Shown here: positions 4,825 to 56,254 of the stretch, one piece after another
How positions within the stretch are numbered: the first letter of the stretch is position 1
Layout: each line of letters starts with the position of its first letter
Assembly: GCF_003234965.1 (NCBI RefSeq)
Contig: NZ_QKVK01000002.1
Location: 124,001 to 188,000, forward strand
Source: Aestuariivirga litoralis
GTDB lineage: Bacteria; Pseudomonadota; Alphaproteobacteria; Rhizobiales; Aestuariivirgaceae
Direction of reading: 5' to 3'
DNA length: 64,000 nucleotides
Translations under genes and position numbers: made by a program
The notes under the pieces: generated by a model
Seen by the model: only the letters and a program-made list of their open reading frames with translations
Told to the model about the DNA's origin: nothing
The model's database searches: none

Positions 4825-4900
4825 GGGCGATTAGCTCAGTTGGTAGAGCACTGTGTTCACATCGCAGGGGTCACTGGTTCGAGTCCAGTATCGCCCACCA
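4825..4900 (+). tRNA. tRNA-Val (anticodon CAC)
   Basis: A full 76-nt cloverleaf: acceptor GGGCGAT pairs with ATCGCCC, the D-arm is GCTC...GAGC, and the anticodon stem CTGTG/CGCAG carries the loop TTCACAT, giving anticodon CAC (reads GUG). The T-arm is ACTGG-TTCGAGT-CCAGT, and the terminal CCA is encoded. The gene stands alone with its own promoter. Confidence 0.97.
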
Positions 4901-9066: not shown

Positions 9067-9999
9067 ATGAGCCATCACCCCTGCCTCGCACCCGACTCGC
9101 AACGCTTCCTCGACCTCTTCCCCGCCGGTGCGGCGCTGACCAAGCTCGCCACCGGCTTCATCTGGGCGGAAGGCCCGGTGTGGTTCTCGGAACTCAACGA
9201 GCTGCGCTTTTCCGACATCCCCAACAACCGCATGATGCGCTGGTCTCCCGTCAGCGGCCTCTCGGTGTTCCGCCAGCCCTCGCAGCGCACCAACGGCCAC
9301 ACGCGCGACCGTGACGGCAACATGGTCTCCTGCGAGCATGGCGGGCGCTGCGTGAGCCGCACTTACATGGACGGCCGCTACGAGGTGCTGGTCACGCACT
9401 GGAACGGCAAGCGGCTGAACTCGCCCAATGACGTGGTGGTGAAGTCCGACGGCACCATCTGGTTCACCGATCCGCCCTACGGCATCATCTCCGACCATGA
9501 GGGCATCATGGCCGAGAGCGCCATCGGCAAGAACCAGGTCTATCGCTTTGATCCAGCCTCGGGCGAGCTGAGCGTGGTGGCCGACGACTTCGACCGGCCC
9601 AACGGCCTTGCCTTCTCACCCGATGAATCCGAACTCTACATCGCCGACTCAGGCTACGCCCGCGGCCACGGCTTCGGCTTCGAAGAGGGCCGGCCGCGCC
9701 ATGTGCGCGGCTTCACCGTGGTGGGCGGTAGGACGCTGAAGAACAGCCGCGTCGTCGCCACCATCATGGAGAAGGTGCCGGATGGCCTGAGGGTCGACAC
9801 CGGAGGCCTGCTGTGGATTTCCGCCGGCGACGGCATCCACTGTTATACGAAAGACGGAGAACGCCTCGGCCGCATCCTGGTGCCGGAGACGGTGGCGAAC
9901 CTCACCTTCGGCGGCTTCGGCAAGTCACGCATGTTCATCACCGCCACGTCATCCCTTTACGCGATCGAAACATCGCGTGTCGGCGCGCAGACACCATAA
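9067..9999 (+). CDS. SMP-30/gluconolactonase family hydrolase
   Basis: A 310-residue six-bladed propeller protein of the SMP-30/gluconolactonase family. Characteristic blocks: WAEGPVWF with the metal-binding Glu near residue 36, TNGHTRDRDGNMVSCEHGGR, LNSPNDVVVKSDGTIWFTD with the metal-site Asn/Asp, and DRPNGLAFSPDESELYIADS. Such enzymes hydrolyse lactones or similar cyclic esters in a metal-dependent way. It follows the enamidase-like gene by 4 bp, suggesting successive hydrolysis of ring-opening products. Substrate unknown. Confidence 0.88.
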   Translation: MSHHPCLAPDSQRFLDLFPAGAALTKLATGFIWAEGPVWFSELNELRFSDIPNNRMMRWSPVSGLSVFRQPSQRTNGHTRDRDGNMVSCEHGGRCVSRTYMDGRYEVLVTHWNGKRLNSPNDVVVKSDGTIWFTDPPYGIISDHEGIMAESAIGKNQVYRFDPASGELSVVADDFDRPNGLAFSPDESELYIADSGYARGHGFGFEEGRPRHVRGFTVVGGRTLKNSRVVATIMEKVPDGLRVDTGGLLWISAGDGIHCYTKDGERLGRILVPETVANLTFGGFGKSRMFITATSSLYAIETSRVGAQTP

Positions 10000-10133
10000 A
10001 AAGAAAGGGTCCTGTTCATCACAGGACCCAGGCAAAGGGAGGAGGCGGGGGGACCCCAGGAAAGGGGGGAACGAAGCGACAGCTGACTTTCTCAGGAGAC
10101 CCGCCCCGCCGACGATGGCGCTAACCACCGTGA
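9998..10133 (-). ncRNA. Candidate Fnr/FixK-controlled small RNA
   Basis: Minus-strand transcript predicted to start near 10133 and end in the U-run at 10006-9998. Its terminator is a perfect 9-bp stem, GGGTCCTGT/ACAGGACCC with a 5-nt loop, followed by TTTCTTTTT. About 10 nt upstream is CCTCCTCCC (complement of 10037-10045), an anti-Shine-Dalgarno motif used by alphaproteobacterial regulatory RNAs. A -10-like TATTGA lies at 10145-10140, and an Fnr/FixK-type box is centred 32 bp further upstream, the class II spacing. No protein gene ends at this terminator. The open frame crossing it has no ribosome site and runs straight through the terminator. Confidence 0.5.
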
Positions 10134-10166
10134 CCATGATCAATAAGCCAGCCGCCGCCCTGCTGC

Positions 10167-10182
10167 TTTGACATGCGTCAAA
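10167..10182. promoter_or_regulatory. Fnr/FixK-type binding site
   Basis: TTTGACATGCGTCAAA matches the TTGA-N6-TCAA consensus of alphaproteobacterial FnrL/FixK with fully symmetric 6-bp arms. It is centred 41.5 bp upstream of the predicted minus-strand RNA start at 10133. Relative to the deacylase gene at 10227 the matching -10 position holds only C-rich sequence, so the minus strand is the better target. Confidence 0.6.
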
Positions 10183-10226
10183 TTTGGCTGCAGGAACGCA
10201 GAGAACCCCCGCGACAATGAGCCCCG

Positions 10227-11378
10227 ATGAAAACCTCGCTTGAACACCTTGAAAAGCTGATCGCCTTCCCGAGCGTGAGCCGGGACCCGAACCTCGACCT
10301 CATCGCCTATGTGCGCGATTTCCTTGGCTCCTTCGGCGTCGACTCGCTGATCGTGCACAACGAGGACGGGCGCAAGGCCAATCTCTGGGCGACGATCGGG
10401 CCAAAGCATGTGCCGGGCATCGTGCTCTCGGGCCACACCGACGTCGTCCCGGTCGAGGGCCAGGCCTGGTCGTCCGATCCCTTCAGGCTCGAGAAGCGCA
10501 ACGGCAACTACTTCGGCCGCGGCACGGCCGACATGAAGGGCTTCATCGCCTGCTGCCTGCGCGCCGCGGAACTCGCCTCGTCCCGGACGCTCCACACGCC
10601 GATCAACCTCGCCTTCTCCTATGACGAGGAGATCGGCTGCGTGGGTGTCCGCCGCCTGCTCGACATCCTGAAGGATGCGCCGGTGAAGCCGCGCCTCTGC
10701 ATCGTCGGCGAACCGACGCTGATGCAGGCCGTCACCGCGCACAAGGGCAAGCTCGGCTTCCGCGTCACCGCCCATGGCCTCGAGGCGCATTCGAGCCTGG
10801 CGCCCATCGGCGTCAACGCCATCTACATGGCGTGTGATCTCATCGGTGCGATCCGCGCCATCCAGAAGGACATCGCGGACAATGGGCTGCGCGACGGCGA
10901 CTACGAGGTGGCCTACACCACGCTCCATGTCGGCAAAATGCAGGGCGGCGAGGTGATGAACATCGTCCCCAACCGCTGCAACTTCGATTTCGAGATCCGT
11001 TACCTGCCGGAGGACGACGAGCGCGCCATCGTCACCCGCATCAAGGCCGCGGCGGAGAAGATCGCCGAGGGCTATCGCGGCGTGTTCGACAAGGCGCGCT
11101 TCGAATTCATGGACCTGCAGAGCTACCCCGCAATGAACACGCCGGTGGACAGCGAGGCGGTGAAGTTCGTGCATTCGCTGACCGGCGGCAATTCCACTGG
11201 CAAGATCACCTTTGGCACCGAAGGCGGATTGTTCCAGCAGGCGCTCGGCACGCCGGCCGTGGTCTGCGGCCCCGGCAACATCGCGGTGGCCCACAAGCCC
11301 GACGAGCACGTGAGCGAAGCCCAGATGGCGCAGTGCGACCGGATGCTGGAACGGCTGGTGGAGAAGCTGGCGTCCTAG
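10227..11378 (+). CDS. M20 family deacylase, acetylornithine deacetylase (ArgE)-like
   Basis: A 383-residue zinc peptidase-family amidohydrolase. Metal and catalytic residues are visible: H70 and D72 in SGHTDVVPV, D102 in GTADMKGF, E134/E135 in SYDEEIGC, and a Glu in IVGEPTLMQ; the dimerisation lid lies between about 170 and 280. It would remove an acyl group from an amino acid. True ArgE is possible, but the position next to a catabolic set and the absence of arg genes make a degradative N-acyl amino acid hydrolase equally likely. The upstream spacer holds the Fnr/FixK box. Confidence 0.85.
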   Translation: MKTSLEHLEKLIAFPSVSRDPNLDLIAYVRDFLGSFGVDSLIVHNEDGRKANLWATIGPKHVPGIVLSGHTDVVPVEGQAWSSDPFRLEKRNGNYFGRGTADMKGFIACCLRAAELASSRTLHTPINLAFSYDEEIGCVGVRRLLDILKDAPVKPRLCIVGEPTLMQAVTAHKGKLGFRVTAHGLEAHSSLAPIGVNAIYMACDLIGAIRAIQKDIADNGLRDGDYEVAYTTLHVGKMQGGEVMNIVPNRCNFDFEIRYLPEDDERAIVTRIKAAAEKIAEGYRGVFDKARFEFMDLQSYPAMNTPVDSEAVKFVHSLTGGNSTGKITFGTEGGLFQQALGTPAVVCGPGNIAVAHKPDEHVSEAQMAQCDRMLERLVEKLAS

Positions 11379-11397: not shown

Positions 11398-11475
11398 CAT
11401 CATGGCCGGGCTTGACCCGGCCATCTTTTTGGTGGCCGCCAAAGAGGATGCGCGGGACAAGCCCGTGCATGATGG
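11398..11475. repeat. Palindromic repeat, family A, copy 2
   Basis: TCATCATGGCCGGGCTTGAC opens the unit and GGGACAAGCCCGTGCATGAT closes it; each half is its own hairpin. It lies between the convergent deacylase and GFA genes, 20 bp past the deacylase stop. Confidence 0.75.
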
Positions 11476-11961: not shown

Positions 11962-12043
11962 TCATCATGACCGGGCCAGACCCGGCCATCCTTTCTGTCG
12001 GCCGCGGAAAAGGATGCGCGGGTCAAGCCCGCGCATGATGAGG
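11962..12043. repeat. Palindromic repeat, family A, copy 3
   Basis: TCATCATGACCGGGCCAGAC on the left and GGTCAAGCCCGCGCATGATG on the right, with about 40 bp between the inner arms. It lies 20 bp past the stop of the DUF1028 gene and probably ends that operon. Confidence 0.75.
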
Positions 12044-19957: not shown

Positions 19958-20036
19958 TCATCATGCGCGGGCTCGACCCGCGCATCCTTTCGCTGCGAGC
20001 AAAAGGATGGCCGGGACAAGCCCGGCCATGATGAGG
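19958..20036. repeat. Palindromic repeat, family A, copy 4
   Basis: TCATCATGCGCGGGCTCGAC on the left and GGGACAAGCCCGGCCATGAT on the right, with CATCCTTT and AAAGGATG facing each other inside. It lies between the convergent DadA-like and GreA/B-like genes. Confidence 0.75.
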
Positions 20037-55300: not shown

Positions 55301-56194
55301 ATGGATATCCGCCAGCTCCAGTATCTCGCAGCGCTCGCGCGCGAAAAGCACTTCACCCGTGCCGCCCAGGCCTGCCACGTCACGCAGCCCACGCTGTCGG
55401 GCCGCATCCGCCAGCTGGAGCAGGAGCTGGGCGTTCCCATCGTCGAGCGCGGCCAGCGCTATATCGGGCTCACGCCCGAGGGCGAGCGCGTGCTGAAATG
55501 GGCGCATCTCATTCTCGACAACTGGCAGAGCCTCACCCAGGAGCTCGGCACCATCCGCTCCAGGAAGGGCGAACTCGTCGGCCGTCTCGTCCTCGGCGTC
55601 ATTCCTTCTGCCCTGCCGAAGGTCTCGATGCTCACCCGCGCCATGGAGCGCGAGCACCGCTCGGTCGAGTTCACCGTGCTCTCGCAGTCCTCCGAGGAGA
55701 TCCTGCGGAACCTGCACGAGCACGCCATCGATGTCGGCATCACCTACCTCGACAACGAGCCGGTGGAGGGCCTGATGCAGCATCCGCTCTACGAGGAGCA
55801 CTACAGCCTCTTCGTCGGCGAAACCTCTCCGTATGCGGATAAATCTTCCGTCACCTGGACAGAGGCGGCGCAGGAACCCCTCTGCCTGCTCACCCCCAAC
55901 ATGCAGAACCGCCGCATCATCGACCGTGCCTTCGCGGTGGCCAATGTCCACCCCTCGCCCCGGCTCGAGACCAATTCGATCATGAACCTGCTCGCCTCGG
56001 TGAAGTCGATGGGGCTGTCCTCCATCATGCCGGACTACTTCATCCATGTTCTGGGCAAGCTCGAGGGGGTCAAGGCCATTCCCCTCACCAACCCGAAGGT
56101 GGAGCACAAGGTCGGCCTCGTCGGCCTGCCGCGCGAGCCGCTTTCCCCCCTGGTCGCCGCCCTCTTCGCCACCGCCCGCACGCTGAAGGCTTGA
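55301..56194 (+). CDS. LysR-type regulator of formate dehydrogenase genes
   Basis: A 297-residue LysR protein: HTH at 1-60 (QLQYLAALAREKHFTRAAQA, CHVTQPTLSGRIRQLEQELG) and an effector domain from about 90 (LVLGVIPSALPKVSMLTRAM). LysR genes upstream of fdsGBA are known as fdsR, and the context here matches, with only a small Cys-rich gene between. It probably activates the operon in response to formate. OxyR-like and CbbR-like relatives have similar sequence. Confidence 0.88.
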   Translation: MDIRQLQYLAALAREKHFTRAAQACHVTQPTLSGRIRQLEQELGVPIVERGQRYIGLTPEGERVLKWAHLILDNWQSLTQELGTIRSRKGELVGRLVLGVIPSALPKVSMLTRAMEREHRSVEFTVLSQSSEEILRNLHEHAIDVGITYLDNEPVEGLMQHPLYEEHYSLFVGETSPYADKSSVTWTEAAQEPLCLLTPNMQNRRIIDRAFAVANVHPSPRLETNSIMNLLASVKSMGLSSIMPDYFIHVLGKLEGVKAIPLTNPKVEHKVGLVGLPREPLSPLVAALFATARTLKA

Positions 56195-56254
56195 TTTCGG
56201 TCAAGGACGGGATTCGCCCCCTCCGCCAAGGTGCACGCTATAGGAGCACCGACC

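Follow-up and report, generated by a model that had tools for sequence, protein, structure and literature searches.

A probable new family of Fnr-activated small RNAs with an invariant loop in Aestuariivirga-like bacteria and their relatives

The 64-kb stretch of Aestuariivirga litoralis DNA analyzed here (the window) carries on its minus strand a candidate small RNA of about 135 nt (9998–10133), which probably belongs to a new RNA family of Fnr-activated, trans-acting small RNAs using an invariant loop. We consider it likely, on the evidence of conservation, that this is a stand-alone structured RNA, activated by an Fnr-type regulator at low oxygen and pairing with target mRNAs through its loop. 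The box, the promoter spacing, the covarying hairpins, the invariant loop, the terminator present in most loci and the persistence of the element were all obtained by comparing sequences. The family consists of 16 distinct loci, found in 12 of the 37 genomes that belong, like the window, to the Aestuariivirga-like genus, in three genomes of a sister genus (G061, G169 and G789, one of them Thermopetrobacter sp. TC1) and in the MAG Dive100_bin3.90 (Dive100 below).

Read on the minus strand from 10240 to 9940, the locus presents TTTGACGCATGTCAAA (box core at 10181–10168), TTATTGATC (with TATTGA at 10145–10140), about 135 nt, GGGTCCTGTGATGAACAGGACCC, and TTTCTTTTT (10029–9998). The Fnr/FixK-type box is TTGACGCATGTCAA (10168–10181, minus strand). 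Its form TTGACNNNNGTCAA has a single copy in the window, at the box, for 0.02 expected, and was present in 2 of 100 shuffles; the looser TTGAN6TCAA has two copies, for 0.40 expected, a number reached in 8 of 100 shuffles. The second looser copy, TTGATTTCGGTCAA (56191–56204), lies at the end of a reading frame named LysR-like by eye; some 475 bp beyond it comes a frame resembling, also by eye, a formate dehydrogenase / NuoE-like subunit. Another TTTGACGCATGTCAAA box was observed in a relative (G018:C20:45830–45859, L014), where the RNA is not beside it. Also, the window contains four copies of GCTTGACCCGGCCATC with at most 2 mismatches (11410–11425, 11975–11990, 12013–12028 and 20006–20021; 0.10 expected), which perhaps belong to a palindromic repeat.

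The -10-like TATTGA (10140–10145, minus strand) lies 32 bp from the box, centre to centre, which is the class II distance looked for in an Fnr-activated small RNA. A scan of 9900–10300 with the sigma-70 consensus found no promoter, which is not unexpected because the promoter would be activator-dependent. Among the 16 RNA loci, TTGAN6TCAA is found upstream in 15, the exception (G031) being close to a contig end, and the TA of the -10 occupies two fixed positions from the box in 13 of these 15, G061 and Dive100 among them. On the other strand, the mirrored positions carry TA in 0 of 15 loci, G011 and G018 having it one base off. As the fixed spacing exists on the RNA side only, the box points at the RNA. 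It is thus extremely unlikely, in our judgment, that the box serves the divergent gene and that the minus-strand RNA is incidental. Such a gene does lie beyond the box in all 15 loci where it was found (in the window an M20 peptidase gene, 10227–11378, plus strand, upstream of the RNA), but it changes from M20 peptidase to kinase-like between genera, whereas the box and the RNA stay. An earlier note, made on the window alone, had described a minus-strand Fnr/FixK box, TATTGA at 32 bp, some 135 nt without a coding gene and a terminator; all of these are present, the 135 nt having no conserved frame, and its proposal that an Fnr-type box drives a small RNA is well supported by the conservation of the box and of the TA, and by a loop invariant in every locus.

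The RNA start suggested by the -10 is located just ahead of a first hairpin, and its end was placed from the terminator. For the resulting 136-nt RNA, the folding energy is -58.5 kcal/mol (z -3.41), and 0 of 200 shuffles were as low; single-sequence folding of eight loci gave more modest values (z -1.20 to -4.94). The RNAalifold consensus is made of two hairpins, both given here on the minus strand: P1 (10112–10131), where 4 of 7 pairs have changed on both sides, and P2 (10044–10110), which combines a covarying closing stem, an inner GAGAAAG/CUUUCC stem and a large apical loop. In an alignment of 14 of the 16 loci, 96.9% of cells were paired, for 50–62% in slid controls, the fitting of this alignment to a covariance model favouring the pairing figures. 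Changes on both sides were found in 10 of 30 pairs, and 0 of 500 shuffles reached any of the five measures used (14 loci). These pair counts leave out G169 and G789, in which the closing stem is very different in sequence and still well paired.

The apical loop of P2, GCUGUCGCUUCGUUCCCCC (19 nt, 10065–10083, minus strand), does not vary across the 16 loci while the stems change; this identity is favoured by the finding of loci through their core, and the 12 genus loci were also found by DNA similarity or by the model. The earlier note had placed the activity elsewhere, in CCTCCTCCC (10037–10045, minus strand), 20 nt downstream of the invariant loop. This motif exists in only 4 of the 16 loci, and its three copies in the window, for 1.08 expected, represent little excess, so that it was discarded as the active part. 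Thus, the switch and the RNA proposed in that note hold, and the motif that matters is another one. The region almost certainly does not code for a small protein. Many loci do have an ATG- or GTG-initiated frame running through the core, but comparison of the loci gave no small protein common to them in frame and start; since frames and starts differ from one locus to another, such a protein is unlikely. Indels next to the loop and an identity that holds at the DNA level regardless of frame also argue against it.

The RNA of the window would end at an intrinsic terminator hairpin (10007–10029, minus strand), with a 9-bp stem, a 5-nt loop and a TTTCTTTTT tail, the T tract reaching about 9998. 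Taken alone it is weak, because 0.7 such sites are expected in the scanned region. Our scan found a comparable terminator, with differing stems, in 11 of the 16 loci and none in the other 5. In G789, P2 is immediately followed by UCUUUUUUC (a U tract), therefore P2 may end the RNA there.

The neighbourhood of the RNA was compared between genera. Of the 12 genus loci, 11 have the M20 peptidase gene upstream and 11 an SMP-30 gene downstream (SMP-30/gluconolactonase gene of the window at 9067–9999, plus strand, convergent). A kinase-like gene, with an AAA_33 domain in its G789 copy, lies divergent to the RNA in the three sister genomes and Dive100; downstream of the RNA there is a Usp gene in 4 of 4, with an Fnr gene in two. 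The neighbours differ between genera, thus the box and the RNA persist together. In G061, Dive100, G169 and G789, usp or fnr is on the same strand, 174–384 nt past the RNA core. This arrangement, as well as the U tract directly after P2 in G789, is what would be expected if the RNA were, or had been, an Fnr-controlled leader or attenuator acting in cis on usp or fnr, with P2 as its terminator. In this group, the RNA may act as a leader. For the family as a whole, we hold such a role very unlikely: in the genus, the SMP-30 gene is convergent in all 11 loci (of 12) that have it downstream, and therefore there is nothing there for the RNA to control in cis.

The members of the family were collected by several searches. 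A search with a 211-base region matched 13 of 61 genomes, 12 of them of the window's genus and one of another family (a 31-base stretch, L013). The covariance model R1, built on P1 and P2, matched 12 of the 37 genus genomes (E 1.3e-15 or better) and also G061, which belongs to another genus of the window's family (E 1.2e-6). G169 and G789 were added through a pattern search allowing mismatches, each with the box and a weak match to a second model, R2. In assembled genome contigs, the exact 20-mer AGCTGTCGCTTCGTTCCCCC was found at 13 loci, 12 already in the set and the one of Dive100 being new. The short DNA matches L013 and L014, a 32-bit second match in G029 (L027, whose 150 upstream bases contain no box) and a 21-bit second match in G169 (L111) were left out before counting.

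Beyond these loci, R1 matched 5 of 297 genomes of the order, all of the window's family. G169, which was in that sample, was missed, so that the lack of members elsewhere holds only as far as these searches reach. In 385 genomes of the class, a 30-base pattern allowing 3 mismatches found the window's own copy alone. The core 21-mer with 3 mismatches matched 33 of 397 genomes of the order (8 family members and 25 others), and the box was found in 0 of the 11 others inspected. The exact 15-mer of the loop matched 3 of 372 genomes of the class, namely the window's own and two without box, and the exact 19-mer loop had no match in viral contigs. Rfam, with 4227 models, includes models of FnrS and of the AbcR RNAs. 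At gathering score, its covariance models matched neither the spacer nor 12 related loci, the only match in the window being a tRNA (4825–4897), and a permissive scan of the spacer gave matches all far under the gathering scores. The earlier note had named an Rfam search and a comparison of the spacer across relatives as checks: the first gave no family for this RNA, and the second found the box kept in 15 of 16 loci and the terminator in 11 of 16. Among the titles and abstract beginnings returned by our literature queries (part of the matches for some queries, few subscription papers), we recognized no paper on such an RNA.

The distribution of the RNA was then set beside that of Fnr. In 15 of the 37 genus genomes, including all 12 RNA-bearing ones, we found an Fnr matching the Dive100 Fnr at E 2.6e-79 or better. 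The other 22 genomes contain a more distant Fnr match (13) or none at E 1e-20 (9), and the RNA in 0 of 22. The association between the RNA and the close Fnr type has a Fisher p of 2.5e-7 over the 37 genus genomes, relatedness being ignored. G006, G014 and G015 have the close type and no RNA; G169 and G789 have the RNA and no match to the Dive100 Fnr at E 1e-20. The CX2CX7C cysteines, read from residue positions, are present in the 15 Fnr proteins and in the G061 Fnr, and CX2CX7C was also found in most of the more distant ones. The Fnr gene of G000 (G000:C25:3192–3923) encodes the Fe-S cysteines, with CX2CX7C and a later cysteine. Comparison with the cbb3 oxidase gene ccoN was uninformative, as it was matched in 34 of 40 genomes, with and without the RNA.

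From these data, we infer transcription of the element, its activation by Fnr, an action in trans, base pairing and repression. At low oxygen, an oxygen-sensing Fnr-type activator would switch on the RNA gene from a class II promoter. The RNA would start at about 10133, fold into P1 and P2 and end at the intrinsic terminator, the C-rich, invariant 19 nt being exposed as the loop of P2. Most probably, this loop would pair with target mRNAs in the G-rich regions where their translation starts, which would lead to less translation of these targets at low oxygen. Blocking of ribosome binding sites by the RNA, as suggested in the earlier note, is plausible.

Loop complements are scarcely more numerous than control sites, with no general enrichment. 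In 6 genomes, 63 sites were found (57 without the 6 of the RNA itself) for 60 with a reversed control, and all 63 were inspected. A second complement search in 15 genomes gave 36 sites, made of the 15 own loci and 21 others, for 15 in the control; 15 of the 21 were inspected. The best lead is a CAF17/GcvT-like gene (G000:C26:130106 in G000; family assigned on the G028 protein). In G000, G028 and G001, its GGGAACGAAGCAACAGC lies one base ahead of the ATG and pairs with the loop at 16 of 17 positions. The predicted pairing at this start reaches -33.5, -33.5 and -32.6 kcal/mol in the three genomes, a strength equalled by 4 or 5 of 1927 background starts and by 0 of 2000 shuffled loops, for a site picked from whole genomes, in which several such sites are expected. 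It is a lead only, because its flanks are conserved too, in three genomes that are closely related. In G061, loop complements precede the starts of a DUF302 gene (G061:C2:9496) and of a FadL-like gene, 5.6 kb apart. As candidate targets, the CAF17/GcvT-like gene and the DUF302 gene are thus only leads.

The Thermopetrobacter cluster concerned (G061:C2:1–18000, L207) contains YeeE- and DsrE-type frames, recognized by eye, the DUF302 protein and two FadL-like proteins, one of which was tested; two start sites of L207 complement the RNA loop. In G018, three near-identical stretches with GGGGGAACGATGAAACTCTTGAAG, near the ends of contigs C112, C121 and C147, are perhaps a repeat element.

The absence of enrichment among complementary sites, together with 19 loop nucleotides unbroken over two genera while the stems vary, would also suit a decoy or scaffold role, in which the loop binds a protein, or a different stable RNA, instead of many mRNAs. 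We find this rather unlikely: the C-rich loop complements purine-rich start regions, some start-site matches are strong, and a loop pairing with many targets could be invariant as well. Tentatively, we also propose, as a possibility with less than even chances, that low oxygen yields a stem of free sequence whose 19-nt loop, absolutely fixed, is shown to one dedicated partner, either a protein or a single core mRNA, and that this device and its Fnr box are inherited together and are linked, inside the genus, to a single Fnr lineage. Loop pairing with target mRNAs is still the reading that we prefer.

Few small RNAs controlled by Fnr/FixK in alphaproteobacteria were met in the literature. Two of them, RSs0019 and RSs2461 of Rhodobacter sphaeroides, have FnrL binding upstream, and their function is not characterised in the portions of PMC4263372 considered here. 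The window RNA resembles them, by their description there, as an alphaproteobacterial small RNA with an Fnr-type site upstream. The exact 15-mer of its loop is found in only 2 of 371 other genomes of the class, neither with the box. With its defined promoter, covarying structure and invariant loop, this compact family, one member of which is in Thermopetrobacter sp. TC1, constitutes a testable case. The AbcR small RNAs of alphaproteobacteria carry CU-rich anti-Shine-Dalgarno motifs, according to the parts consulted of PMC7143759, and similarly present C-rich unpaired stretches able to mask ribosome binding sites. In contrast to AbcR, the window RNA has no Rfam match, and its conserved C-rich part is the P2 loop, outside the CCTCCTCCC motif, which is not conserved. 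FnrS, the FNR-activated small RNA of enterobacteria in the passages used of PMC4263372 and PMC10993149, belongs to another bacterial class, and no Rfam covariance model matches the window RNA, which carries an invariant loop atop a long covarying stem. The plan would nevertheless be the same in both, namely an Fnr-type activator, a small RNA and a presumed pairing with mRNAs at low oxygen.
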